DNA of 64,000 bases from assembly GCF_001267885.1 (NCBI RefSeq), contig NZ_CP012382.1:7861001-7925000 (forward strand). The letters run 5' to 3'. The notes under the pieces were generated by a model that searched no databases, was not told where the DNA came from, and worked only from the letters and a program-made list of their open reading frames with translations. Both the position numbers and the translations under genes were made by a program. This document shows, piece by piece, positions 11,067-29,500 of the stretch (the stretch's first letter is position 1; every line of letters starts with the position of its first letter). This DNA is from Streptomyces ambofaciens ATCC 23877. GTDB taxonomy: Bacteria; Actinomycetota; Actinomycetes; Streptomycetales; Streptomycetaceae.

Positions 11067-11097
11067 ATCGTAAGTGCGCACGCGCCGCAGGTGTCAA
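11067..11097 (-). promoter_or_regulatory. Candidate sigma-HrdB-type promoter for orphan permease
   Basis: On the minus strand, TTGACA (11092-11097) and TACGAT (11067-11072) are 19 bp apart, about 190 bp upstream of the permease ATG. The spacer is slightly long. Confidence 0.45.
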
Positions 11098-11144
11098 CTG
11101 CGCCTCGCCGGGCCGGATCCGGCGGTCCGGCATACGGGCGTTGC

Positions 11145-11174
11145 TTGACGAGAGGCCCGTGGTACTGCTCAATT
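11145..11174 (+). promoter_or_regulatory. Candidate promoter of the first sulfur leader ORF
   Basis: TTGACG (11145-11150), an 18-bp spacer, then TCAATT (11169-11174). The expected start of transcription is close to the leader ATG at 11181, so the leader mRNA may be leaderless. Confidence 0.5.
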
Positions 11175-11180
11175 AATCGC

Positions 11181-11258
11181 ATGAATGCCCAGCAGCGCTT
11201 GGTCTCGCGCGACCACATCGACTTCGGTCGGGTGTGGTCCGCGGCGTGTTGCGTCTGA
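11181..11258 (+). CDS. Sulfur-operon leader peptide 1 (25 aa, Cys-Cys)
   Basis: ATG AAT ... TGT TGC GTC TGA encodes 25 residues with the core V-S-R-D-H-I-D-F-G-R-V-W-S-A-A-C-C. This aligns with leader 2 (26243-26344: L-T-S-R-R-H-I-D-L-G-R-T-S-S-A-I-C) and leader 3 (29351-29500). Two adjacent Cys codons (11247-11252) lie just before the stop. No Shine-Dalgarno is visible, and the ATG is near the predicted transcription start. It precedes the monooxygenase/ABC operon by 216 nt, in which alternative hairpins can form (11268-11316). Ribosome stalling at Cys codons when cysteine is short is the inferred mechanism; cysteine-codon upstream ORFs acting this way are known from mycobacteria. Confidence 0.82.
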   Translation: MNAQQRLVSRDHIDFGRVWSAACCV

Positions 11259-11267
11259 CTCGGCAGC

Positions 11268-11316
11268 GGGCCGTCTGACCGGCCCTTCCCTCCCTCGGTG
11301 ACCCCGTCGCGGGCCG
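11268..11316 (+). promoter_or_regulatory. Candidate attenuator: mutually exclusive hairpins
   Basis: GGGCCG (11268-11273), CGGCCC (11280-11285) and GGGCCG (11311-11316) allow the middle segment to pair with either flank; ACTCGG (11258-11263) can also pair with CCGAGT (11314-11319). A ribosome paused on the Cys codons would cover the first segment. The assignment is inferred from base pairing by eye. Confidence 0.45.
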
Positions 11317-11474
11317 AGTTCGCTCTTCGCGCGCGCTGCCGCATCTCCGCTTCCCCCGACGCACGGCGTCGTCACACCGGCACCTTCCTCCCTTCTGACG
11401 CTTAGTCATCTCTGCCCCCACGCATGGCGACTCCGTCATGCCTGCGTGCGGTCGCTCCTGAAAGGGCCACTGTC

Positions 11475-12602
11475 ATGCCCGTGGAATTCCTCGGCATCGC
11501 CGCCACCCACGACGGCTCCGAGACCACCCCGCGCTCCGGCGCCGCCTTCGACAAGGAGTACACACTCCGGCTCGCCCGGGCTCATGAGGACCACGGCTGG
11601 GACCGGGTGCTCTTCGCCTACGGCTCCGGCTCCCCCGACCCCGCCCCGGCCGCCGCGTACCTCGCGAGCCGCCTGGAGCGCCTGCAGATCCTCCTCGCCC
11701 ACCGGCCCAACGTGTCGTACCCGACGTTCGCCGCGAAGACCTTCGCCACCCTCGACCAGATCAGCGACGGCCGCCTGACCGTCCACTTCATCACCGGTGG
11801 CGACGACCACGAGCAGGGCCGCGAGGGCGACACCCTCACCAAGGACCAGCGCTACGCCCGCACCCGCGAGTACATCCGGATCGTCAAGAAGATCTGGACC
11901 ACGCACGAGCCCTTCGACCACGAGGGCGAGCACTACCGCTTCCACGACTTCGTCAGCGACGTCTTTCCCGTCCAGCAGCCGCGCCCGAACGTGTCGTTCG
12001 GCGGTTCGTCGCCCGCCGCCCTCGCCGCCGGCGGTGCGGAGGCCGACGTCTTCTGCCTGTGGGGCGAGCCGCTGGAGCGGACCGCCGAGCAGATCGAGGC
12101 CGTGCGGGCCGCCGCGAAGGCCGCGGGCCGCACCGACGTGCCCCGCATCCAGGTGGCGTTCCGGCCGATCATCGCTCCGACCGAGGAACTGGCCTGGGAG
12201 AAGGCCCACCGCACGGTCGGCGCCATCCGGGAGCGGGGCGCGACCGGGCCGGGGCGGCGCCACCGCACCGGCGCCCCGCAGAACACCGGCTCGCAGCGGC
12301 TGATCGCCATCGCCGAGGCGGGCGAGCGCTACGACCGCGCCCTGTGGACCCCGACGGCCGCGGCGACCGGCGGCGCGGGCAACTCCAACGCCCTGGTCGG
12401 CACCCCGGAGACGGTCGCACAGGCCCTCCTCGACTACTACGACCTCGGCGTCGACATCCTCTCCGCCCGGGGCTACGACCTGCTGGACGACGCCATCGAC
12501 TTCGGCCGGTACGTCATCCCCCTCGTGCGCGAGGAGGTCGCCAAGCGCGACGCCGGACGCGCGGCCGGCGTTCCGCGGTCCCTGGCGGCGGTGGGCGAAT
12601 GA
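11475..12602 (+). CDS. SsuD-like FMNH2-dependent alkanesulfonate-type monooxygenase
   Basis: 375 residues from ATG 11475, chosen for the GAAAGGG ribosome-binding site (11459-11465); an in-frame ATG 17 codons upstream is less likely. Luciferase-like TIM-barrel features are H-R-P-N-V-S-Y-P-T-F-A-A-K (SsuD-type), D-Q-I-S-D-G-R-L-T-V-H-F-I-T-G and S-F-G-G-S-S-P-A-A-L. This group desulfonates alkanesulfonates with FMNH2 and O2, releasing sulfite. It is first in an operon of four or more genes (GNAT, ABC importer, more monooxygenases) and follows leader peptide 1. Reduced FMN probably comes from the reductase at 22204. Confidence 0.88.
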   Translation: MPVEFLGIAATHDGSETTPRSGAAFDKEYTLRLARAHEDHGWDRVLFAYGSGSPDPAPAAAYLASRLERLQILLAHRPNVSYPTFAAKTFATLDQISDGRLTVHFITGGDDHEQGREGDTLTKDQRYARTREYIRIVKKIWTTHEPFDHEGEHYRFHDFVSDVFPVQQPRPNVSFGGSSPAALAAGGAEADVFCLWGEPLERTAEQIEAVRAAAKAAGRTDVPRIQVAFRPIIAPTEELAWEKAHRTVGAIRERGATGPGRRHRTGAPQNTGSQRLIAIAEAGERYDRALWTPTAAATGGAGNSNALVGTPETVAQALLDYYDLGVDILSARGYDLLDDAIDFGRYVIPLVREEVAKRDAGRAAGVPRSLAAVGE

Positions 12603-13135
12603 CGTCCGTAGCCGAGACGCCGTCGCGGGCGGCGGCCCTGACCGTCGTCCACGTCCCGGTCTCCGACCCGCGCGTGGGGCCCCTGCTGACCGAACTCGGC
12701 CACGAGTACTCCACGCGCTACGGCAGGGACGCGCACGCCGAGATCGCCCGCTACCCGGACGAGGAGTTCACCCCGCCGCACGGCGGCCTGCTCCTGCTGC
12801 TGCTGGAGCGCGGAGAGCCCGTCGCGGGCGGCGCCTTTCGCCGCTACGACGCGGCCACGGCCGAGCTGAAGCGGATCTGGACGCACTCCGCGCACCGCCG
12901 GCGCGGGCTGGCGCGCCGCGTGATCGCCGAACTGGAACACGAGGCCGGCGCACGCGGCTACCGCCGGATCCACCTGACCACCGGGCCACGCCAGCCGGAA
13001 GCCCGCGGCCTGTACCTGTCCACCGGCTACACGCCGCTGTTCGACACCGAGGCCGACCCGGAAACCATCGGGCCGCTGCCCTTCGAGAAGCACCTGCCCG
13101 TCACCACGTCCCCCGGAAAGGCCACGGACCAGTGA
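12599..13135 (+). CDS. GNAT-family N-acetyltransferase
   Basis: 178 residues. The ATG overlaps the previous stop (ATGA), showing translational coupling to the SsuD-like gene. The acetyl-CoA loop is visible as H-S-A-H-R-R-R-G-L-A-R-R-V, preceded by A-E-L-K-R-I-W and followed by A-R-G-L-Y-L-S-T-G-Y-T-P-L-F. GNATs recur in organosulfur operons, where acetylation of S-alkylcysteine-type compounds is a known step. Here the substrate is only inferred from that context. Confidence 0.87.
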   Translation: MTSVAETPSRAAALTVVHVPVSDPRVGPLLTELGHEYSTRYGRDAHAEIARYPDEEFTPPHGGLLLLLLERGEPVAGGAFRRYDAATAELKRIWTHSAHRRRGLARRVIAELEHEAGARGYRRIHLTTGPRQPEARGLYLSTGYTPLFDTEADPETIGPLPFEKHLPVTTSPGKATDQ

Positions 13136-14085
13136 AACTCCCCGCTTTCGGAGGCCGCCTGCGCGGCACCGCCGTCCTCGCGCTGCTTCCGCTCCTCACG
13201 CTGACCGCGTGCGGCTCCGGCGACACCGGCGGCACCGCGGCCGTGGGCGCCCAGGCCTCCCCGGCACCCACCACCGACCCGGTCGCCTCCGTCCGCACGG
13301 TGGACTCCGTCGCCGCCCTGCTGCCGGCCGACGTCCGCCGCTCGGGCACGCTGCGGGTCGGCAGTTCGATCGGCTTCCCGCCGGGCGCGTACTACCCGAA
13401 CGGGTCGGACAAGGCGCCCGCGGGCCAGGACATCGACCTCGCCGACGCCGTCGCCAAGGTCCTCGGTGTGCGACTGCGCCGCCAGGACGCCTCCTTCGAG
13501 ACGATCCTGCCCGCCCTCGGCAGCGGCAAGTACGACGTCGGCACCGGCAACTTCGGCGTGACCACCGAGCGCCTGAAGACCATCGACTTCGTCACCTACG
13601 TCAACGACGGCCAGGGCTTCGCGGTGAAGAAGGGCAACACCGCGATCGAGAAGGTCACCGACCTCACCCAGCTGTGTGGACTGACCGTCGGCACCGGCGC
13701 CGGCACCACCTTCGAGACCACCCTCACCGCGCAGAAGGACGAGTGCGCAAAGGCCGGGAAGAAGCCCTACGACGTGAAGGTCTACTCGGAGAACGCGGCG
13801 ACCCTCACCGCACTCCAGCAGGGCCGCATCGACGTGATCATGTCGACCATCAACGGCTTGCGCTACCAGGCCTCCCAGCCCGCCTCGCAGACCACGTTCC
13901 TCGGCGAGTACCACCGCCTCGACGTCGGCTTCGCCTTCAAGAAGGGCTCCCCGCTCACCAAGGCCTTCCGGGCCGCCGTCGACGAACTGATCAAGGACGG
14001 CACGTACGCCCGGATCCTCCGGAAGTGGGGCACATCCGCCTCCGCGATCGAGACGTCGCGCATCAACCCGCCCGAGCACGCGTAA
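13132..14085 (+). CDS. ABC substrate-binding lipoprotein (SBP_bac_3 type)
   Basis: 317 residues from a GTG at 13132 overlapping the previous TGA. A lipoprotein signal with lipobox L-T-A-C (Cys27) is followed by a linker and a periplasmic-binding-protein fold with R-R-S-G-T-L-R-V-G-S, G-Q-D-I-D-L-A-D-A-V-A and D-V-G-T-G-N-F-G-V-T-T-E-R. These are features of polar-amino-acid binding proteins. With the permease (14107) and ATPase (15135) it makes a complete importer. Given the island, the ligand is probably a sulfur compound such as a cysteine derivative or cystine, but this is inference. Confidence 0.9.
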   Translation: MKLPAFGGRLRGTAVLALLPLLTLTACGSGDTGGTAAVGAQASPAPTTDPVASVRTVDSVAALLPADVRRSGTLRVGSSIGFPPGAYYPNGSDKAPAGQDIDLADAVAKVLGVRLRRQDASFETILPALGSGKYDVGTGNFGVTTERLKTIDFVTYVNDGQGFAVKKGNTAIEKVTDLTQLCGLTVGTGAGTTFETTLTAQKDECAKAGKKPYDVKVYSENAATLTALQQGRIDVIMSTINGLRYQASQPASQTTFLGEYHRLDVGFAFKKGSPLTKAFRAAVDELIKDGTYARILRKWGTSASAIETSRINPPEHA

Positions 14086-14106
14086 GAGCTGAGCAGGAAC
14101 CCCACC

Positions 14107-15138
14107 ATGGCATCCACCACCGACGCCGCACCCTCCGGGGCGGCCCCCGCGGGCACCCGCCCCCAAGCTCCGCCCGCCCCGGACGATCCGGCCTCCCTCA
14201 CGGTCGTCCCCGCCCGCCACTACGCCCGCTGGGTCGCGGCTGCCGCCGTGGTCGTGCTGGTCGCCCAGTTCGTGCACGGCCTCGCCACCAACCCCGTATG
14301 GGAATGGGGCGTCTTCCGCGACTACGTCCTGTCCGAGACCATCGTGCAGGCGGTGTGGGTGACCCTCCAGCTCACCGCCTACGCCACCGTTCTCGGCTTC
14401 CTCCTGGGCACCGTGCTCGCCTTCATGCGGCTGTCCCGCAGTCCCGTGCTGCAGACCGTCGCCTGGACGTACATCTGGATCTTCCGCTCGATCCCGATGA
14501 TCGTGCAGCTGGTGTTCTGGTTCAACCTGAGCGCCCTGTACCAGGAGCTGGGCATCGGCGTCCCCTTCGGTCCGGTGTTCTGGTCGGTCGACAGCAACAG
14601 CCTCATCGGCACCATCGGCGCCGCGATCATCGGTCTGACACTGCATCAGGCCGCGTACGCCGCCGAGATCGTCCGCGGCGGCGTCATCTCCGTCGACCAC
14701 GGGCAGCTGGAGGCCGCCGCCGCGCTGGGCATCCCGCGACTCCGGCAGATCCGGCGCATCGTGCTGCCCCAGGCCATGCGCGCCATCCTGCCCACGGCCG
14801 GCAACGAGATCATCGGCCTGCTCAAGGGCACCTCGGTGGTCTACGTGATGTCCATCGGCGAGCTGTTCTACCAGGTGCAGGTCATCTACGGCCGCAACGG
14901 CCGGGTGATCCCGCTGCTGCTCGTCGCCACCGCCTGGTACGTGGTGCTGACCTCCCTGCTGTCGGTCGCCCAGTACTACGTGGAACGCCGCTACGCCAGG
15001 GGAGCCGACCGCACCCCGCCACCGACCCCCATCCAGCGCGCCCGGCGCTTCGCGCGAGGCCTGCGCGCGGCGGCCGCCCGGCGCGACCGCCCCGTCGTGC
15101 CGCTGAAGACACTCGGACCCGTAGGAGAGAGCCGATGA
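14107..15138 (+). CDS. Polar amino-acid-type ABC transporter permease
   Basis: 343 residues. Membrane helices begin at about 38. T-Y-I-W-I-F-R-S-I-P-M-I-V-Q-L-V-F-W and the EAA loop (G-Q-L-E-A-A-A-A-L-G-I-P-R-L-R-Q-I) identify a HisM-type permease. It closely resembles the orphan permease at 9876-10880, including the C-terminal Q-Y-Y-V-E-R-x-Y-A-R-G. It overlaps the ATPase start by 4 bp. A single permease gene suggests a homodimeric channel, or a heterodimer with the orphan paralogue. Confidence 0.92.
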   Translation: MASTTDAAPSGAAPAGTRPQAPPAPDDPASLTVVPARHYARWVAAAAVVVLVAQFVHGLATNPVWEWGVFRDYVLSETIVQAVWVTLQLTAYATVLGFLLGTVLAFMRLSRSPVLQTVAWTYIWIFRSIPMIVQLVFWFNLSALYQELGIGVPFGPVFWSVDSNSLIGTIGAAIIGLTLHQAAYAAEIVRGGVISVDHGQLEAAAALGIPRLRQIRRIVLPQAMRAILPTAGNEIIGLLKGTSVVYVMSIGELFYQVQVIYGRNGRVIPLLLVATAWYVVLTSLLSVAQYYVERRYARGADRTPPPTPIQRARRFARGLRAAAARRDRPVVPLKTLGPVGESR

Positions 15139-15899
15139 GCGAGGTCATGGTGGACGTCCACGGCGTCCACAAGAGCTTCGGCCCGCTGGAGGTGCTGCGC
15201 GGCGTCGACCTGCGGGTCCGCGCCGGCGAGGTCACCGTGGTCCTCGGCCCGTCCGGCTCCGGCAAGTCCACGCTGCTGCGCACCATCAACCACCTGGAGA
15301 AGGTCGACCGCGGCCTGATCAGCATCGACGGCGAACTCATCGGCTACCGCCGCTCGGGAAACCGGCTGCACGAACTGAAGGAGAGGGAAGTCCTGAAGCA
15401 GCGCACCCACATCGGGTTCGTCTTCCAGAACTTCAACCTCTTCCCCCACCTCACCGTGCTGGACAACCTCGTCGAGGCACCGGTCTCCGCCCTGCGCCGC
15501 CCGCGCAAGGAGGCGGAGGAGACGGGCCGCCGGCTCCTGGAGCGGGTCGGCCTCGCCGACAAGGCCGGCGCCTACCCGCGCCAGCTCTCCGGAGGCCAGC
15601 AGCAGCGCGTGGCCATCGCCCGTGCGCTCGCCCTCGAACCGAAGGTGCTGCTCTTCGACGAGCCCACCTCGGCACTCGACCCCGAACTGGTCGGCGAGGT
15701 CCTCGACGTCATCAAGGACCTGGCCCGCACCGGCACCACCATGATCGTCGTCACCCACGAGATCGGCTTCGCCCGCGAGGTCGCCGACACCGTGGTCTTC
15801 ATGGACGACGGCCTCGTCGTGGAACAGGGCCCGCCCTCGGCCGTCCTCGACACCCCGCGGCACGAGCGCACCCGCGCCTTCCTCTCCAAGGTCCTCTGA
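15135..15899 (+). CDS. Amino-acid-type ABC transporter ATP-binding protein
   Basis: 254 residues. Walker A G-P-S-G-S-G-K-S-T (about 38-46), Q-loop F-V-F-Q-N-F-N-L-F, signature L-S-G-G-Q-Q-Q-R, Walker B V-L-L-F-D-E-P-T-S-A-L-D-P and the H-switch T-H-E are all intact; it is of the GlnQ/HisP type. It couples ATP hydrolysis to import through the permease at 14107, whose stop it overlaps (ATGA). Confidence 0.94.
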   Translation: MSEVMVDVHGVHKSFGPLEVLRGVDLRVRAGEVTVVLGPSGSGKSTLLRTINHLEKVDRGLISIDGELIGYRRSGNRLHELKEREVLKQRTHIGFVFQNFNLFPHLTVLDNLVEAPVSALRRPRKEAEETGRRLLERVGLADKAGAYPRQLSGGQQQRVAIARALALEPKVLLFDEPTSALDPELVGEVLDVIKDLARTGTTMIVVTHEIGFAREVADTVVFMDDGLVVEQGPPSAVLDTPRHERTRAFLSKVL

Positions 15900-15933
15900 C
15901 CCCCCGCCCCTCCCGCACGCAAGGAGCACTGCC

Positions 15934-16926
15934 ATGGCCACCACCCCCACCGTCCGCCGCACCACCGCGGCAGCCGCCGGACTCGCCACCGCCCTCGTCC
16001 TCGCCGGCTGCGCCAATCCCACCGACGGCGGCACGACCGAGGTCGCGGCCACACCTGGCGGCAAGACCACGACCCGGATCAACATCAGCCCGGACCAGAA
16101 CCGCGTCACGACCGCCAAGGTCGACTCGATCGCCGCCGAGGTCCCGGAGCGGATCCGCAAGAGAGGCACGCTCGAGCTCGTCGCCTCCTCCGGCTCCGCC
16201 GCCCCGCTCACCTTCCACGCCACCGACAACAAGACCGTCATCGGCGTGGAACCGGACCTCGCCCACCTCGTCGCCGACGTGCTCGGACTGAAGCCCCGCC
16301 TCCACACCGTCTCCTGGGAGAACATCTTCGTCGGTCTCGACAGCGGCAAGTACGACGCGGGCCTGAGCAACATCACCGTCACCGAGGAGCGCAAGGAGAA
16401 GTACGACTTCGCCACCTACCGCGAGGACAACCTGGGCTTCGAGGCGAAGAAGGGCAGCGGCCTGGAGGTCGCCGGACCCGAGGACCTGGCGGGCAGGACG
16501 GTCGCGGTCAGCAGCGGCACCAACCAGGAGAAGCTCCTCGTCGAATGGAGCAAGGAGAACGAGAAGGCCGGCCGCGAACCGGTGGACATCAAGTACTACC
16601 AGAACGACAGCGACACCTACCTCGCCCTCCAGTCCGGCCGCATCGACCTCTACCTGGGCCCCAACCCGACCGCCGCCTACCACGCGGCCACCACCGGGAA
16701 GACCGAGGTCGTCGGTACCTACTCCGGGGCCGGCGCCACCCTCCAGGGCCTCATCGCCGCCACCACGAAGAAGGACAGCGGCCTGGTCGAGCCGCTCGCC
16801 GCCGCGCTCAACCACGTCATCGACAACGGCACGTACGCGAAGGTGCTCCAGCGCTGGGGCCTGTCCGACGAGACCGTCACCGAGTCCCGGATCAACCCGC
16901 CGGGCCTGCCCAGGACCAACCAGTAG
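15934..16926 (+). CDS. Second ABC substrate-binding lipoprotein
   Basis: 330 residues with a lipobox L-A-G-C (Cys26) after a basic N-terminus. The SBP_bac_3 fold shows G-T-L-E-L-V-A-S-S, G-V-E-P-D-L-A-H-L-V, Y-D-A-G-L-S-N-I-T-V-T-E-E-R and the closing S-R-I-N-P-P motif shared with the first binding protein at 13132. AAGGAG precedes the ATG by 7 nt. Two different receptors for one permease/ATPase set would widen the substrate range; the sequences are diverged, so this is not a recent duplicate. Confidence 0.9.
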   Translation: MATTPTVRRTTAAAAGLATALVLAGCANPTDGGTTEVAATPGGKTTTRINISPDQNRVTTAKVDSIAAEVPERIRKRGTLELVASSGSAAPLTFHATDNKTVIGVEPDLAHLVADVLGLKPRLHTVSWENIFVGLDSGKYDAGLSNITVTEERKEKYDFATYREDNLGFEAKKGSGLEVAGPEDLAGRTVAVSSGTNQEKLLVEWSKENEKAGREPVDIKYYQNDSDTYLALQSGRIDLYLGPNPTAAYHAATTGKTEVVGTYSGAGATLQGLIAATTKKDSGLVEPLAAALNHVIDNGTYAKVLQRWGLSDETVTESRINPPGLPRTNQ

Positions 16927-16953: not shown

Positions 16954-18156
16954 ATGTCATCGGCAACACCGTCACCCCTGCACCTCGCCGTCGCCCTGGA
17001 CGGCACCGGCTGGCACCCCGCCTCCTGGCGCGAGCCGGACGCCCGGCCCCGGGACCTGTTCACCGCCGCCTACTGGGCGGGCCTCGTCACCGAGGCCGAG
17101 CGCGGACTGCTCGACTTCGTCACCTTCGAGGACGGCCTCGGCCCCCAGTCCTCCCACGCCTTCGACCCGGACGAGCGCACCGACCAGGTCCGCGGCCGCC
17201 TCGACGCCGTCCTCATCGCCTCCCGCGTCGCCCCGCTGACCCGCCACATCGGCCTCGTGCCGACGGTCGTCGCCACCCACACCGAGCCCTTCCACATCTC
17301 CAAGGCGATCGCCACCCTCGACCACGTCAGCAACGGCCGCGCGGGCCTCAGGGTGCAGATCACCGCACGCCCGAACGAGGCCGCCCACTTCGGCCGCCGC
17401 ACCGTCCGGCGTATCGAGGCCTACGACAGCCCCGACGCCCTGGCCACGGTGACCGACCTGTTCGACGAGGCCGCCGACCACGTCGAGGTCGTGCGCCGCC
17501 TCTGGGACAGCTGGGAGGACGACGCCGAGATCCGGGACGCCGCCACCGGCCGCTTCATCGACCGGGACAAGCTGCACCCCATCGATTTCGAAGGCAGGCG
17601 ATTCAGCGTCCGGGGACCCTCCATCACGCCCCGCCCGCCACAGGGCCAGCCGATCGTCAGCGCCCTCGCCCACGACACCGTCCCGTACCGGCTCGTGGCC
17701 CGGGCCGCCGACGTCGGCTACGTCACGCCCCACGACGCCGACGAGGCCAGCGCCGTCGTCGGCCGGATCCGCGCCGAGCAGGACACCGCCGGCCGGGCGT
17801 CCGAGCCCCTGCACGTCTTCGGCGACCTCGTCGTCTTCCTCGACGACGACCCGGCCACCGCCCGGGCACGCCGGGAACGGCTCGACGCGCTCGCCGGACA
17901 GCCGTACACCGGCGACGCGCCCCACTTCACCGGCACGCCCTCCCAACTCGCCGACCTGCTCCAGGAGTGGCGCGACGCGGGGCTGTCCGGGTTCCGGCTG
18001 CGACCGGCCGTCGCGGCCCACGACCTGCCGGCGATCACCCGCGGTCTGGTCCCCGAGCTGCAGCGCCGGGGTGCCTTCCGCCGCGCCTACGAGGCCGGCA
18101 CCCTGCGCGGCCTGCTGGGCCTGGCCCGCCCCGCCAACCGCTACGCCGCCGCCTGA
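16954..18156 (+). CDS. Luciferase-like flavin-dependent monooxygenase (NtaA-like)
   Basis: 400 residues. An LLM TIM barrel with L-D-F-V-T-F-E-D-G-L-G, I-G-L-V-P-T-V-V-A-T-H-T-E-P-F-H, S-K-A-I-A-T-L-D-H-V-S-N-G-R-A-G and P-R-P-P-Q-G-Q-P: the SnaA/NtaA/DszA branch that uses FMNH2 supplied by a separate reductase. GGAAGG lies 7 nt upstream of the ATG. It is followed 20 bp later by a second enzyme of the same branch. It may cleave C-S or C-N bonds in a scavenged substrate; specificity is unknown. Confidence 0.87.
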   Translation: MSSATPSPLHLAVALDGTGWHPASWREPDARPRDLFTAAYWAGLVTEAERGLLDFVTFEDGLGPQSSHAFDPDERTDQVRGRLDAVLIASRVAPLTRHIGLVPTVVATHTEPFHISKAIATLDHVSNGRAGLRVQITARPNEAAHFGRRTVRRIEAYDSPDALATVTDLFDEAADHVEVVRRLWDSWEDDAEIRDAATGRFIDRDKLHPIDFEGRRFSVRGPSITPRPPQGQPIVSALAHDTVPYRLVARAADVGYVTPHDADEASAVVGRIRAEQDTAGRASEPLHVFGDLVVFLDDDPATARARRERLDALAGQPYTGDAPHFTGTPSQLADLLQEWRDAGLSGFRLRPAVAAHDLPAITRGLVPELQRRGAFRRAYEAGTLRGLLGLARPANRYAAA

Positions 18157-18176
18157 GCCGGAAGGACCCCGGACCC

Positions 18177-19550
18177 ATGACCGAGCCCCTGAAGCAGATC
18201 CACCTGGCCGCCCACTTCCCCGGCGTCAACAACACCACCGTCTGGAGCGACCCGCGGGCAGGCAGCCACATAGAGTTCAGCTCCTTCACGCACTTCGCCC
18301 GAACCGCCGAACGCGCCAAGTTCGACTTCCTCTTCCTCGCCGAAGGCCTCCGGCTGCGCGAACAGCACGGAGAGATCTACGACCTGGACGTCGTCGGACG
18401 CCCGGACACCTTCACCGTCCTCGCCGCGCTCGCCGCCGTCACCGAACACCTGGGCCTGACCGGCACCATCAACTCCACCTTCAACGAGCCCTACGAGGTG
18501 GCCCGCCAGTTCGCGAGCCTCGACCACCTCTCCGGCGGCCGCGCGGCCTGGAACGTCGTCACCTCCTGGGACGCCTTCACCGGCGAGAACTTCCGCCGCG
18601 GCGGATTCCTGCCCCAGGAGGAGCGCTACTCCCGCGCCGAGGAGTTCCTGGCCACGGCCAACGAACTCTTCGACTCCTGGCACGGCGACGAGATCCTCGC
18701 CGACCAGGAGACCGGCCGGTTCCTGTCGGACGCCAAGGCCGGGGCCTTTGTACACACCGGCCGGCACTTCGACATCCACGGCCGGTTCAACGTCCCGCGG
18801 TCCCCGCAGGGCCGCCCCGTCGTCTTCCAGGCCGGCGACTCCGACGAGGGCCGTGAGTTCGCCGCGGCCGAAGCGGACGCCATCTTCAGCCGCCACGGCA
18901 CCCTCGAAGCGGGCCGGGCCTTCTACACCGACGTCAAGAGCCGCCTGGCCAAGTACGGCCGAGGCCGCGACCAGCTCCTCGTCCTGCCCGCGGCGACCTT
19001 CGCCCTCGCCGACACCGACGCCGAGGCCGAGGAACTCGCCCGCGAGGTGCGCCGGCAGCAGGTCAGCGGTGCCACGGCCCTCAGACACCTGGAGTTCGTC
19101 TGGAACCGGGACCTGTCCGCGTACGACCCGGACGGACCGCTTCCCGACGTCGACCCGGACATCGGCCAGGACCACGTCTCCCAGGGCCGCGCCCAGGTCC
19201 GGATGTACCGGGACCCGCTGGCCACCGCCCGTGAGTGGCGCGACCTGGCCGCGGCCAACAAGTGGTCCATCCGCGACCTGGTCATCCACACCGGCAACCG
19301 GCAGAACTTCGTCGGCTCCCCGGCCACCATCGCCCGGACCATCGACGCCTTCGTCCAGGCCGACGCGAGCGACGGCTTCATCCTCGTCCCGCACCTCACC
19401 CCGACCGGCCTCGACGAGTTCGCCGACAAGGTCGTCCCGCTGCTTCAGGAACGGGGCGTGTACCGCACGGAGTACGAGGGCACGACCCTGCGCGACCACC
19501 TCGGCCTGACCCACCCGGACCACGTCCGCGCCGAGCGGGTCGCGTCGTGA
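18177..19550 (+). CDS. NtaA/SnaA/DszA-type flavin-dependent monooxygenase
   Basis: 457 residues from ATG 18177 after GGAAGG; the longer upstream frame is a shadow of the previous genes. It has the branch hallmarks F-D-F-L-F-L-A-E-G, A-S-L-D-H-L-S-G-G-R-A-A-W-N-V-V-T-S, G-E-N-F-R-R-G and V-P-R-S-P-Q-G-R-P-V. The length fits DszA/NtaA (about 440-470 residues). Relatives oxidise sulfones, dimethyl sulfide or aminopolycarboxylates. It overlaps the next gene as GTGA. Confidence 0.9.
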   Translation: MTEPLKQIHLAAHFPGVNNTTVWSDPRAGSHIEFSSFTHFARTAERAKFDFLFLAEGLRLREQHGEIYDLDVVGRPDTFTVLAALAAVTEHLGLTGTINSTFNEPYEVARQFASLDHLSGGRAAWNVVTSWDAFTGENFRRGGFLPQEERYSRAEEFLATANELFDSWHGDEILADQETGRFLSDAKAGAFVHTGRHFDIHGRFNVPRSPQGRPVVFQAGDSDEGREFAAAEADAIFSRHGTLEAGRAFYTDVKSRLAKYGRGRDQLLVLPAATFALADTDAEAEELAREVRRQQVSGATALRHLEFVWNRDLSAYDPDGPLPDVDPDIGQDHVSQGRAQVRMYRDPLATAREWRDLAAANKWSIRDLVIHTGNRQNFVGSPATIARTIDAFVQADASDGFILVPHLTPTGLDEFADKVVPLLQERGVYRTEYEGTTLRDHLGLTHPDHVRAERVAS

Positions 19551-20647
19551 AGTTCCTCGCCATCACCCTCATCGCGCACCGCCCCGACCCCGTCACCGGA
19601 GTGCGCAAGCCCACCCACGACCGCTTCCGGGAGGTCCTCGACAACGCCCTGCTCGCCGAGGAGCTGGGCTTCGACGGCTTCGGTGTCGGGGAGCGGCACG
19701 AGCGGCCGTTCCTCTCCTCCTCCCCGACCGTCGTGCTCAGCCACGTCGCGGCGCTCACCCGGCGCATCCGGCTCTTCACCGCCGTGACCACTCTGAGCCT
19801 GCTCGACCCGGTGCGCGCCTACGAGGACTACGCCACCCTGGACCACCTCTCCGATGGCCGGCTGGACCTGATCATCGGCAAGGGGAACGGCACCGCCCAG
19901 CGCGAGCTCTTCCACGTCACGGGGGAGGACCAGTGGGACCGCAACGCCGAGAGCTACGAGGTCTTCCGGCGGCTCTGGCGCCAGGACAAGGTGACCGCGG
20001 CCACCCGCTTCCGCCCGCCGCTGACGGACGCCGAGGTCTGGCCGCGCCCGTACCAGCGGCCCGTGCGGGTCTGGCACGGCAGCGCGACCAGCAAGGAGTC
20101 GGTCGACCTCGCCGCCCGCTACGGCGACCCGCTGTTCTCGGCGAACGTCACCCATCCCATCGAGCCGTACGCCGAGCTGATCCGCCACTACCGTGAACGC
20201 TGGGAGCACTACGGTCACGACCCGGCCCGCATCGCGGTCGGCGCCGGCACGGCGGGCATCCACGTGGCGCCCACCTCCCAGCAGGCGCTCGCCGCCTACC
20301 GGCCGGTGTTCGAGGCCAATCTCGCCTTCGCCCGGCAGACCGGACTGCCCGTGGTCTTCGAGACCCTGGAGGACTTCGCCGAGCGCAGCTCCGCCCTCAT
20401 CGGCAGCCCCGAACAGGTCATCGACAAGGTGCACCGCTACCACGAGCGGTTCGGGCACACCGCGCTCCACGTCCCCGCGGACGCGGGCGGCCTCACCGAC
20501 GCGCAGCACCGCCACTCGCTGGAACTGTTCCAGTCGGCGGTGGCCCCCGTGCTGCGCCAGGACATTCCGGACCCGCCGTTCGCGTGGGCCCCGGTACTGC
20601 CGGCAACACCGACCGCTCGTACAGAAGAAGGGCTGGCCCATGCCTGA
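19547..20647 (+). CDS. Luciferase-like flavin-dependent oxidoreductase
   Basis: 366 residues from a GTG overlapping the previous stop. The LLM fold shows D-G-F-G-V-G-E-R-H-E-R, T-A-V-T-T-L-S-L-L-D-P-V-R and T-L-D-H-L-S-D-G-R-L-D-L-I-I-G-K-G. It belongs to the shorter bacterial-luciferase-alpha-like group rather than the DszA branch. The C-terminal extension past residue 340 is Pro-rich. Overlap with the next start (20640) makes it part of one coupled run of four monooxygenase genes. Substrate unknown. Confidence 0.87.
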   Translation: MKFLAITLIAHRPDPVTGVRKPTHDRFREVLDNALLAEELGFDGFGVGERHERPFLSSSPTVVLSHVAALTRRIRLFTAVTTLSLLDPVRAYEDYATLDHLSDGRLDLIIGKGNGTAQRELFHVTGEDQWDRNAESYEVFRRLWRQDKVTAATRFRPPLTDAEVWPRPYQRPVRVWHGSATSKESVDLAARYGDPLFSANVTHPIEPYAELIRHYRERWEHYGHDPARIAVGAGTAGIHVAPTSQQALAAYRPVFEANLAFARQTGLPVVFETLEDFAERSSALIGSPEQVIDKVHRYHERFGHTALHVPADAGGLTDAQHRHSLELFQSAVAPVLRQDIPDPPFAWAPVLPATPTARTEEGLAHA

Positions 20648-26242: not shown

Positions 26243-26344
26243 TCAGGCGGGCCGACAGATGGCGCTGGACGTGCGGCCGAGGTCGATGTGGCGGCGGGAG
26301 GTCAGCAGGGGGAGCGGCAGGTCTGCGCAAGTGCGCGCGCTCAT
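26243..26344 (-). CDS. Sulfur-operon leader peptide 2 (33 aa)
   Basis: On the minus strand, ATG at 26344 to TGA at 26243-26245 encodes 33 residues with the core L-L-T-S-R-R-H-I-D-L-G-R-T-S-S-A-I-C-R-P-A, Cys at positions 6 and 30. GGAGGG lies 5 nt before the ATG. The core recurs in leaders 1 and 3; short ORFs with this sequence are frequently seen before sulfur genes in streptomycetes. It precedes ssuA by 193 nt, with a hairpin in between. A cysteine-responsive attenuation role is inferred. Confidence 0.87.
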   Translation of the reverse strand: MSARTCADLPLPLLTSRRHIDLGRTSSAICRPA

Positions 26345-27175: not shown

Positions 27176-28405
27176 TCAGGCGGGCAGGACGAACGGAGGG
27201 TGAGCGCCGCTGAGGAAGTAGTGTCCGACATCGCGGAGCCGATGCGAGACGGGCTCGTACAGGGTGTGTGCGCGGGTATTGCGCCAGAACCGGTCGAAGC
27301 CCAGCCGCGTGGAGGTGGAGCGGGCGCCGATGACGTCGAGGGCGCGGATCGTGGACTCCTGCGCTGCCCGGGCCGCGGCGCTTTCGGCCATGGCCACGAG
27401 GGCGGAGATGTCCGCGCACTCGTCGTAGGTGAGGTTCTCGTCGCGCTCCAGCCCGTCGCGCACCGCTTCCAGCGCCTGAGCGGTGAGCGCCGACGCGGAG
27501 CGGGTGAGGACGGTGAGTTCTCCGTAGGCGGTCTGTACCTGCGGGTCGTGCGGGGTACCGACCGGCCAGGAGGGGTGCCCGGCCGCGTGGCCGGTCCTGC
27601 TGTACTCACGGGCTTCGGCGAGCACTCCCTCAGCCATGCCGAGAAGGAGCTGGGCGGAGAACAGACGCCCGACCGGAGAGGCCAGGGCGGCCCGAGGCGA
27701 CAGCAGGTCCTCGTCCGCGGACAGGGTGCCGAGCACGTCCTCGGCCCCCACCGGCACGTCGTCGAACTCCACGCTGCCGCCGGCCGCGAGCCGCTGGCCG
27801 AAGGGGTCGGCGTCGCCGTCGATCACCACACCGCGACGGCCGGGATCCACTACGACGGCGAGTGGCTCACCCGTGTCCTCCCGCACGCCGCGCACGGCGA
27901 GACGGTCGGCGACCTGGACCCCGGAGGTGTAGCTCTGCCGGCCGTTGAGCACCAGGCCCTTGGAGGTCCTGGCCAGTACCAGGGGCGGCTCCTGACGCGC
28001 GAAACCGCCGCCCCAGCACCACTCCTCGGCCGCGGACCGCTCCTCGATCCGCGCGGCGAGAGCGGGCCCCGCGAAGAACCGGACGCTCCATGAAAGGAAG
28101 TAGTGAGAGCCCAGCAGCTGACCGATCGCGCCGTCGGCCGCGGCGATCTCCCGGACGACGGCGTACGCCGTCAGCCGGTCCGGTCCGGCTTCCTGGGACC
28201 CGGTCGGCATCAGGAACGTCAGTAACCCCGCCTCGCGCAGCCGGGACACCTCGTCGAACGGGGCCTTGCCCGCCTGCTCCCTGGCCACCGCGTCCGTGGC
28301 CAGGTCGTCCGCCACCTCACGGGCCACGCGCAGCCAGTGAGCCCGGCCGGGTCCGCTGCGGTCGGACGGCGGGGTGGAGAGGGGTGGCGCGGACGCAAGG
28401 CCCAT
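27176..28405 (-). CDS. DszC/SfnB-like flavin monooxygenase (acyl-CoA-dehydrogenase fold)
   Basis: 409 residues from ATG 28405, preceded by GAGGAG. It lacks the E-G-T catalytic-base motif of true acyl-CoA dehydrogenases. Instead it has S-H-Y-F-L-S-W-S-V-R-F-F near 95, S-G-V-Q-V-A-D-R-L, E-F-D-D-V-P-V and the C-terminal G-A-R-S-T-S-T-R-L-G-F-D-R-F-W-R-N-T-R-A-H-T-L-Y, as in dibenzothiophene monooxygenase DszC and SfnB. Such enzymes oxidise organosulfur compounds with FMNH2. It lies 13 bp downstream of the regulator gene at 28419, probably in one operon. Confidence 0.88.
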   Translation of the reverse strand: MGLASAPPLSTPPSDRSGPGRAHWLRVAREVADDLATDAVAREQAGKAPFDEVSRLREAGLLTFLMPTGSQEAGPDRLTAYAVVREIAAADGAIGQLLGSHYFLSWSVRFFAGPALAARIEERSAAEEWCWGGGFARQEPPLVLARTSKGLVLNGRQSYTSGVQVADRLAVRGVREDTGEPLAVVVDPGRRGVVIDGDADPFGQRLAAGGSVEFDDVPVGAEDVLGTLSADEDLLSPRAALASPVGRLFSAQLLLGMAEGVLAEAREYSRTGHAAGHPSWPVGTPHDPQVQTAYGELTVLTRSASALTAQALEAVRDGLERDENLTYDECADISALVAMAESAAARAAQESTIRALDVIGARSTSTRLGFDRFWRNTRAHTLYEPVSHRLRDVGHYFLSGAHPPFVLPA

Positions 28406-28418
28406 GGAAGTCGACTCC

Positions 28419-28988
28419 TCAAGGTCGGCCGCACAGCGCGGCGTCGGGGCTCTCCTGCTGGTCGGGCACGTACTTGTAGCCCATGCGCCGAACGGTGACG
28501 ATCCGGTGCCGGTGAGCCTCGCCGAGCTTGCGGCGCAGGCGGGCGATGTGGACGTCGACCGTGCGGCCGTCACCGACGTGGTCGTAGCCCCAGACGGCGC
28601 CCACCAGCCCATCGCGTGAATGCACGTGGTGGGGGTGCTGGACGAGATGCGCCAGCAACTCGAACTCCAGGTAGGTGAGGTCGAGTTCGCGTCCGTCCAC
28701 CTCGGCGACGTGCCGCGCCGTGTCGATGCGGACGGCGTCGTCTCCCACCCACCGGTCAGGGGGCGAGACCTCGACGCTGACCGGCCGGATCTCGGGCCGT
28801 GGCCCGTCCTTGACGAAGAGCTCGGCGGGATCGGTGCCCTCCGGGACGAGTACGAGGTAGCCGACGAGCGGCGGGGGAGTAGGTCCCTGGGTGCCTCGCC
28901 GCGCGGTGTCGCCCACCAGGTGAAGACGGGGGGCGGGGGAGGGGGACGGGTCGTGCGGGGTGGTCCGGGCCGGAAGTGCCGTGGTCAT
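28419..28988 (-). CDS. Winged-helix (OmpR/PhoB-type) regulator lacking a receiver domain
   Basis: 189 residues from ATG 28988 with a GAGGG ribosome-binding site. An unusual N-terminus (1-80) contains G-Y-L-V-L-V-P-E-G-T-D-P and no phospho-acceptor receiver. The OmpR-type winged helix (about 85-175) shows L-T-Y-L-E-F-E-L-L-A-H-L-V, G-D-G-R-T-V-D-V-H-I-A-R-L-R-R-K-L-G and V-R-R-M-G-Y-K-Y. It is cotranscribed with the DszC-like gene and divergent from leader 3, so it may control both directions; no kinase is evident nearby. Confidence 0.88.
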   Translation of the reverse strand: MTTALPARTTPHDPSPSPAPRLHLVGDTARRGTQGPTPPPLVGYLVLVPEGTDPAELFVKDGPRPEIRPVSVEVSPPDRWVGDDAVRIDTARHVAEVDGRELDLTYLEFELLAHLVQHPHHVHSRDGLVGAVWGYDHVGDGRTVDVHIARLRRKLGEAHRHRIVTVRRMGYKYVPDQQESPDAALCGRP

Positions 28989-29350
28989 GGCGGTTGTCCC
29001 TCGGAAGTGTGTGCGGCCGTCAGGCGTTGTGGGTGACCTCGCCCGATCGCCTGGGAAGGCGTGAGCGGAGCGACATGGGTGAATGCGTGAGTCGCGTGCT
29101 TTACGCGTGACAGCAGGCGGCACTGACGACGTGACCAAAGTCGACATGCCGACGACGAACGAGTCGTTGCTGCTTACGGGACATGTTCATCATCCTGCGC
29201 ACCCCCGGTGAACGCCGTCAAGGTTTCCCTAGTAAGTCCATGGGAAAAGTAGGGAAGGTCTCACACTCTGAGAGGCCGGCGGGCTCTTGACGGGGCCCGG
29301 CCGCGGCCTGACACTCCTTTACGGGATTCCTAGTGGAACGGTAGACAAGC
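28989..29350. other. 362-bp divergent regulatory region
   Basis: Separates the winged-helix regulator (minus) from leader 3 (plus). It contains TTCCCTA (29225-29231) and its complement TAGGGAA (29250-29256), an overlapping TTTCCC-N12-GGGAAA pair, and the CCTA-N7-GGTAG motif at 29329-29344. No protein-coding ORF is convincing. Confidence 0.6.
29329..29344 (+). promoter_or_regulatory. CCTA-N7-GGTAG motif overlapping leader 3 promoter
   Basis: CCTAGTGGAACGGTAG, the same spacing as the motif before leader 2. TAGACA (29342-29347) resembles a -10 element, so the motif overlaps the core promoter; the leader ATG follows at 29351. Confidence 0.6.
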
Positions 29351-29500
29351 ATGGTCGGTGCTGTGCTGGACCTCGACAGCGACGCTGTCCGCGTCGCCGT
29401 CCGGCCGCTGCCCCTGCTGACATCCCGCCGCCACATCGACCTCGTACGTGTGTGCAGTGCGGCGAGTTCCTCGCAAGCCGGTGGTCCCGCCCCCGCCTGA
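29351..29500 (+). CDS. Sulfur-operon leader peptide 3 (49 aa)
   Basis: ATG 29351 to TGA 29498-29500. Residues 20-38 read L-P-L-L-T-S-R-R-H-I-D-L-V-R-V-C-S-A-A, closely matching leader 2; a single Cys codon at position 35. The N-terminal extension (1-18) and Ser/Gly/Pro tail are longer than in the others, so the start could be internal. It stands 89 nt before the thiol-transferase-like gene. GCTCGG (29519-29524) can pair with CCGAGC (29568-29573) in the gap. Confidence 0.78.
   Translation: MVGAVLDLDSDAVRVAVRPLPLLTSRRHIDLVRVCSAASSSQAGGPAPA

Follow-up and report, generated by a model that had tools for sequence, protein, structure and literature searches.

A putative leaderless cysteine leader peptide with a fixed UGU codon upstream of a predicted organosulfur operon in Streptomyces

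In attenuators of the E. coli trp type, a leader ORF containing codons for the end product is followed by alternative pairings, while in arrest peptides of the TnaC type the arrest codon lies at a set spacing from nascent residues that are conserved, and the output is Rho-dependent. For actinobacteria, Cys leader peptides were predicted in 2005 upstream of mycobacterial cys operons, without terminators and with Rho weakly suggested (PMC1262725, in the passages available), and according to the available passages of PMC4633059 (2015), mycobacteria have conserved leaderless ORFs rich in Cys, one of which showed ribosome occupancy. Citing Canestrari et al. 2020, excerpts of PMC13236596 and PMC9031893 refer to Cys leader ORFs of M. 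smegmatis that attenuate translation, and an excerpt of PMC9094748 names these ORFs regulatory and cysteine-responsive. A reannotation of S. lividans (PMC8079986) includes eight attenuator leaders, none of which is termed cysteine-dependent in the excerpts at hand. Three NCBIfam models of such leaders exist, namely NF042933, NF042934, and NF042936.

Here, we analysed a leader ORF in a stretch of 64,000 nucleotides of the Streptomyces ambofaciens genome, referred to as the window in the following. Judged from comparison with its relatives, we consider it with a probability of about 0.75 to be a leaderless peptide that would gauge charged tRNA-Cys and thereby control the putative organosulfur operon downstream.

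The leader ORF, its upstream signals and the downstream operon

The leader ORF comprises 25 codons, starts with the ATG at 11181, and ends with the TGA at 11256-11258. As claimed in the earlier note, it carries two adjacent Cys codons (TGT, 11247-11249, and TGC, 11250-11252), separated from the stop by a single GTC codon. Ordinary gene finders passed over it, and it precedes genes predicted to function in sulfur scavenging. The features assigned to this region are as follows:

11145..11150, plus strand: TTGACG, -35-like element, the position of TTGAC being kept in orthologous leaders
11166..11174, plus strand: TGCTCAATT, presumed -10 region ending 6 nt 5' of the ATG, consistent with a leaderless start
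11181..11258, plus strand: leader peptide ORF, MNAQQRLVSRDHIDFGRVWSAACCV, marked by ortholog conservation and amino-acid-level selection
11247..11249, plus strand: UGU at motif position 14 (Cys), the putative sensing codon, TGT in 76/76 orthologs
11250..11252, plus strand: UGC at position 15, the second Cys codon, kept in part of the orthologs (Cys in 58/76, Arg in 11)
11259..11474, plus strand: C-rich, G-poor leader-to-gene interval, possible Rho-loading region, judged from the composition of the 150 nt before the gene
11460..11466, plus strand: GAAAGGG, presumed Shine-Dalgarno of the first operon gene, GAAAGG in 72/76 orthologs
11475..12602, plus strand: luciferase-like (LLM) monooxygenase, first operon gene (PF00296)
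12599..13135, plus strand: GNAT acetyltransferase (PF00583)
13132..16926, plus strand: ABC importer with binding protein, permease, ATPase, and second binding protein (PF00497, PF00528, PF00005, PF00497)
16954..20647, plus strand: three further LLM monooxygenases (PF00296)

Both binding proteins of the importer belong to family 3. Based on these protein families, a role of the operon in organosulfur import and oxidation appears likely, which would place the leader upstream of sulfur or cysteine genes, as is the case for Cys-responsive leaderless leaders.

Upstream of the start, the first base of TTGAC was located at -36 in 71 of the 76 orthologous leaders, at -37 in three, and at -35 in one, and it was missing in one. 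None of the 76 revealed a Shine-Dalgarno-like motif, and the ortholog consensus 5' of the start reads CTGCTCAATT-n6-ATG. Based on the conserved TTGAC spacing, the absent Shine-Dalgarno, and this layout, transcription presumably starts at or adjoining the ATG, i.e., the leader would be leaderless. The placement of the ATG beside the transcription start and without a Shine-Dalgarno, as proposed in the earlier note, would fit the layout conserved in orthologs, though a sigma-70 consensus scan of 11080-11500 called no promoter, the -10 region of the leader being far from TATAAT. A search of the window against Rfam resulted in no family at its gathering score. Further 5' of the -35 element, a partly conserved ATcCGG stretch at about -49 to -44 of the orthologous leaders was identified, which may be an activator site. 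Altogether, sequence comparison indicates that the ORF at 11181-11258 is real, and it very probably encodes a translated leader peptide of putatively leaderless type.

Conservation of the peptide and of the UGU codon

Loci of relatives were fetched by means of the first operon gene and not of the leader, and 80 of 282 relatives were kept. Conservation of the ORF in relatives, on which the earlier note had made its proposal depend, was found in 76 of these 80 loci, well beyond chance, each harboring a leader with the motif no more than 700 nt 5' of the first operon gene. The four loci lacking one were L052, a contig with 112 nt upstream, and three loci of Lentzea (L109, L115, L116), where a looser motif search over 1.2 kb upstream revealed nothing. 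Nearly all named records sharing the first operon gene belonged to Streptomyces. The core nucleotide pattern with up to 2 mismatches was detected in 93/150 genomes of the genus (reversed control pattern, 0/150), a query of the leader type matched 7/296 genomes of the phylum, all in the genus of the window, and a leader of type HIDFGRVWS was also present in Wenjunlia (L111).

Codon changes were counted by parsimony on a tree of the 76 downstream genes (tree length 5.39). The conserved segment of the peptide reads LV[S/T]RxHIDFGRVWSA, and its codons revealed a clear excess of synonymous over nonsynonymous changes, namely 14/0 for L-2, 14/0 for R1, 18/0 for R8, 10/0 for S11, and 24/2 for A12, while the five codons after the start had undergone 21 synonymous and 70 nonsynonymous changes on the same tree. 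Replacements of G7 and W10 in the 76 orthologs were to Cys (6/76 and 4/76, respectively). Because of the synonymous excess at the conserved codons, the leader is very probably translated and its amino acids matter. R1, L-2, and A12, which together account for 52 synonymous and 2 nonsynonymous changes, lie outside the possible coding-sequence hairpin P0 described below, so that this hairpin does not account for their conservation. Selection thus acts on amino acids at fixed spacing 5' of a presumed arrest codon, as is typical for nascent-peptide arrest elements.

As in Cys-responsive leaderless leaders, Cys codons near the stop of the leader are kept in relatives. At position 14, TGT did not change on the tree, and it was found in 114 of the 115 distinct leader sequences of this type among all fetched loci. 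Position 15 was TGC in 57 orthologs and TGT in one. The same codon preference extended to other leaders, i.e., those retrieved with NF042934 or located in this window (4 of 72 loci gave no motif row): among 62 rows with Cys at position 14, 61 had TGT, compared to 18 TGT and 37 TGC for Cys codons elsewhere in the tails of all these rows, one of the 18 coming from a probable chance match (Fisher p ~1e-15, with rows that are not independent). Codon 14 was not part of the search pattern for these leaders; R1, D5, and R8 of the core were, and their invariance is for that reason no evidence. As a background, 20 regions of the genome were sampled with a crude gene caller, and TGT accounted for 8.4% of their 680 Cys codons. 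One subtype, RRRHVDFGHVV, breaks the rule with TGT at position 14 in 3/16 (TGC in 13), TGT being present at 14 or 15 in 14/16. Five other-leader rows had no Cys at position 14, namely L224 (Gly), L242 (Ser), and L227, L228, and L229 (stop), and two more, L155 on the plus strand and L162, look like chance matches. In L227, L228, and L229 (genomes G087, G067, and G095), the stop codon falls exactly on position 14 (SAY-stop or SAI-stop), as though it were the position that counted and less so its coding for Cys.

Two tRNA-Cys(GCA) genes were detected in the genome with a search pattern that required GCA. Since the pattern demanded this anticodon, reading of UGU by wobble only is an assumption, under which UGU would be decoded more slowly than UGC. 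In the literature consulted, which includes Canestrari et al. 2020 through citing papers, neither a fixed UGU nor selection on the peptide was encountered as a described feature of these leaders, and the fixed UGU at position 14 may thus be new.

Relatives of the leader also occur elsewhere in the window and in the genome. The earlier note had reported the S-R-x-H-I-D-x-G-R core in two other short ORFs of the window, which applies to the one at 26243-26344 (minus strand), whereas the one at 29345-29500 (plus strand) has V in place of G. The former, MSARTCADLPLPLLTSRRHIDLGRTSSAICRPA, is a second Cys leader over the NF042934 cut-off and lies 5' of an NMT1-like ABC binding protein. A third leader, MSRKQQRLVRRRHVDFGHVVSAACCHA, at 29101-29184 (minus strand), displays the core RRRHVDFGH and the order TGC-TGT; on the same strand, it is followed by an ORF (28419-29147) whose product has a winged-helix Trans_reg_C domain, and by an acyl-CoA-dehydrogenase-like gene (27176-28612). 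The open frame at 29345-29500 (plus strand) encodes the fourth relative, SRRHIDLVRVCSAASSS, which also exceeds the NF042934 cut-off and has Ser (AGT) at position 14 and Cys at position 10. A search of the 8.39-Mb genome with the NF042934 profile resulted in 11 places over the cut-off, two of them within the window. The neighbor scan covered 7 of 8 NF042934 loci, L006 being left out since the called ORF seemed out of frame, and showed that leaders at other places in the genome precede genes for a cysteine dioxygenase, a PLP enzyme, a nitrite/sulfite reductase, an FMN reductase, an SDF-family symporter, and two ABC binding proteins. A further subtype with the same core ends in WSSSC-stop or WSASC-stop and forms a subset of L022-L038 (e.g., L029, L030, L033); two of its loci were scanned, with L030 preceding a family-3 ABC binding protein and L022 an FAD-NAD(P)-binding protein.

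Hairpins and the route of the signal

One possible hairpin within the leader and two hairpins after its stop codon were considered:

11211..11239, plus strand: possible hairpin P0 in the coding sequence, GACCACAUC-GAC-UUCG-GUC-(G)-GGUGUGGUC, judged from its energy versus synonymous recodings
11268..11285, plus strand: hairpin A, GGGCCG-UCUGAC-CGGCCC, 96-97% cells paired, 1/6 pairs changed on both sides
11294..11318, plus strand: hairpin B, CUCGG-UGAC-CCCG-UCG-CGGG-CCGAG, 91-95% cells paired, 5/9 pairs changed on both sides

When run on the 76 downstream segments, RNAalifold returned no more than a 3-bp structure, and the named helices were therefore counted instead. The alignment used for A and B consisted of 64 of the 76 orthologs together with the window; 12 orthologs (L066, L076, L077, L078, L080, L088, L093, L095, L105, L106, L111, L113) were left out, mostly for insertions, and 8 of these 12 have a recognizable hairpin A in the form of a GGGCC-n-GGCC pair, so that the counts lean towards structure. 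In this alignment, 94.7% of the cells were paired for A and B, compared to at most 50.3% in versions slid by 1-3 columns, and the covariation score was 0.087, while shuffles scored 0.063 and slid versions no higher than 0.053. Six pairs had changed on both sides versus 1.2 in shuffles; slid versions likewise reached 4-7, a control that speaks against the two hairpins. Hairpins A and B are moderately supported by covariation. In the minimum-energy fold, hairpin B competes with ACTCGGC (11258-11264), which pairs with the 3' arm of B; covariation of this pairing did not exceed shuffles. An outer pairing CGGCAGC/GCTGCCG was seen in some orthologs.

Within the coding sequence, a stretch of 29 nt may form a hairpin of 12 bp (P0) that is capped by UUCG and contains one bulge. 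In 58 of the 76 orthologs, no more than 10 of 200 synonymous recodings were equally stable (mean -15.5 vs -8.6 kcal/mol), and the Gly codon GGT of P0 is nearly fixed with one synonymous change on the tree, whereas 24 near-invariant Gly codons of the downstream gene had on average undergone 12.5 such changes and in no case one or fewer. In the covariation test, the number of pairs with changes on both sides was 0, the same as in shuffles, and P0 is therefore suggested by recoding energies and codon choice. In other subtypes, the stem retains 3-8 of the 12 pairs, and the hairpin as such is absent there. Of 53 distinct cores, 41 were taken, and 12 of other subtypes were left out. Pausing of RNA polymerase at P0, considered from the spacing, was dropped, as the base 3' of UGU varies in the family.

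According to the reading that we prefer, a leaderless peptide gauging charged tRNA-Cys, ribosomes would begin at the 5'-terminal AUG, synthesize LV[S/T]RxHIDFGRVWSA, and, if Cys-tRNA is scarce, halt when UGU codon 14 occupies the A site. The state of the leader ribosome would then decide on expression of the organosulfur import and oxidation operon. The putative output is premature termination within the C-rich interval 5' of the first gene, which would probably depend on Rho and be influenced by hairpins A and B, and the main alternative output is a switch at the level of the Shine-Dalgarno. Conservation, leaderless layout, amino-acid selection, the fixed UGU, and, moderately, hairpins A and B are the parts supported by comparison; translation, stalling, cysteine as the signal, polarity, and output are what we infer from them. 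Against cysteine gauging stands the unconserved second Cys codon with Arg in 11/76. Over the 76 loci, the 150 nt 5' of the first gene had a C-G skew averaging 0.264 and were 62.5% pyrimidine, compared to 0.039 and 51% in control upstream regions of the genome (n=101, crude gene caller), 4/101 of which reach 0.264. This C-rich composition suits Rho loading and is the basis of the putative Rho output; against such an output, a ribosome stalled at UGU would not directly cover the C-rich stretch.

Translational attenuation as in mycobacteria, in which the leader ribosome would alter access to the Shine-Dalgarno of the first gene, is unlikely here but retains a real chance. Such control is described for the Cys leader ORFs of M. 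smegmatis in the excerpts of PMC13236596 and PMC9031893, and, folded in 73 of the 76 leaders, the Shine-Dalgarno was 61% paired on average. However, its partners are more frequently located nearby (0.34) than in the conserved module (0.095; >0.5 in 5/73), and the distance from the leader stop to the first gene varies from 152 to 453 nt across orthologs. Sequestration of the Shine-Dalgarno by the conserved module is, with the mean pairing of 0.095, unsupported. As an observation apart, the Shine-Dalgarno is unusually constant, GAAAGG occurring no more than 20 nt from the start in the 72 orthologs noted above. Based on the C-rich composition and on the Shine-Dalgarno being seldom paired with the conserved module, Rho-dependent control most likely ranks first among the outputs and translational control second.

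The earlier note had proposed a trp-like attenuator, in which a ribosome stalled at the Cys codons masks segment 1, segments 2 and 3 pair, and a terminator hairpin is prevented. The three segments are indeed present and conserved, with GGGCCG at 11268-11273, CGGCCC at 11280-11285, and GGGCCG at 11311-11316 permitting mutually exclusive pairings. Covariation across relatives, a check that the note had named, spoke moderately for hairpins A and B, while pairing of segment 2 with segment 3 revealed 0 compensatory pairs, the same as shuffles, leaving the alternative pairing without evolutionary support. No intrinsic terminator, i.e., a hairpin followed by a U-run, was found in 11080-11500 by consensus scan.

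The geometry of the ribosome points in the same direction. The 3' edge of a ribosome footprint lies about 12-13 nt beyond the first A-site base. With TGT or TGC in the A site, a footprint of this general size would end at about 11259-11263, i.e., 4-8 nt short of 11268, which makes it doubtful that segment 1 is within reach, as had been claimed, and masked by a stalled ribosome. Folding without a ribosome gave a probability >0.5 for A in 57 of 65 rows, for B in 14, and, in 38, for the outer pairing that joins an ACTCGGC-like stretch to the 3' arm of B. With stalling at TGT or TGC, A exceeded 0.5 in 52 or 47 of 65 and B in 41 or 38, whereas the alternative pairing did so in 5 or 9. The alternative reached >0.5 in 33/65 rows with the ribosome at the stop codon, where it would be when cysteine is replete, and in 53/65, as well as in the window, once segment 1 was fully masked. 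Thus, a stalled ribosome would favor A and B over the alternative, the reverse of classical polarity, and we regard the trp-like switch as improbable. From the cysteine attenuator suggested for the importer and monooxygenase operon, comparison retains the Cys-type leader ORF, while the three-segment read-out is left with neither covariation nor a terminator; the signal of the leader probably takes a different route.

A functional microprotein that acts in trans and lacks any regulatory role in cis would fit with amino-acid selection reaching well past the Cys residues, yet it is very improbable, given that relatives with divergent ends precede different genes within one genome, several of them of sulfur metabolism, and that a mature protein would not require a fixed rare Cys codon. 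That a DNA operator or promoter element is conserved and the ORF incidental is hardly credible, although the upstream promoter region is conserved too and the core is a palindrome-like 29-mer, since synonymous sites change while amino acids stay fixed, also outside the palindrome (R1, L-2, and A12).

Comparison with known leaders

By comparison, the leader is of a known kind, the actinobacterial Cys leader peptides, and represents a subfamily unaccepted by NF042933, NF042934, and NF042936. Against NF042936 (Ms4527A Cys-rich leader peptide) it scored 22.9 bits at a curated cut-off of 45, and NF042934 (cis_reg_atten, cut-off 27 bits) did not report it at E up to 10, a search in which speed filters may drop a weak match. 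With the mycobacterial leaderless Cys ORFs (Canestrari et al. 2020; NF042936 Ms4527A, NF042933 Ms5788A) it shares a short ORF of putatively leaderless type, Cys codons near the stop, and sulfur genes downstream. It differs from them in carrying one or two Cys codons at its end instead of runs, in hairpins A and B after the stop, and in the possible hairpin P0 within the coding sequence. The 'putative leader peptide' sequences of NF042934 have the core and the spacing to the Cys codon in common with it, though most display H[IV]DLxRxxS in place of HIDFGRVWS. Leaders from another family of the class of the window organism likewise share an R-x-H/A-x-D-x-x-R core and UGU14, and the four of them that were scored pass the cut-offs of NF042933 (L149, L150) or NF042936 (L160, L175). 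The fixed UGU therefore spans Streptomyces leaders and leaders passing the mycobacterial models.

Our analysis would extend cysteine-type leaders to a Streptomyces subfamily on a putative organosulfur operon that existing models do not accept. A plain codon-counting attenuator predicts neither conservation of the leader at the amino-acid level nor a rare UGU at one position, and both rules bear on the choice between codon counting and peptide arrest as the way in which such leaders work. Tentatively, the whole actinobacterial Cys-leader family might employ nascent-peptide-assisted arrest, with RxHxDxxR in the tunnel priming the ribosome and UGU, read by wobble and placed at a constant spacing, serving as a hypersensitive single-codon detector of Cys-tRNA (or cysteine), a proposal we regard as possible rather than probable. 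If it holds, L227, L228, and L229 with their stop at position 14 would be termination-arrest versions of the same device.

Compared to the E. coli trp attenuator, the leader of the window also has codons for the end product and alternative pairings that can be drawn, while no terminator was found for it and its alternative pairing lacks covariation. Compared to the TnaC type, most members of the Cys-leader group have a Cys codon and not a stop at the fixed position, and arrest is presumed; the leader of the window likewise displays conserved residues at a fixed distance from its presumed arrest codon, and a Rho-dependent output is plausible for it, too.
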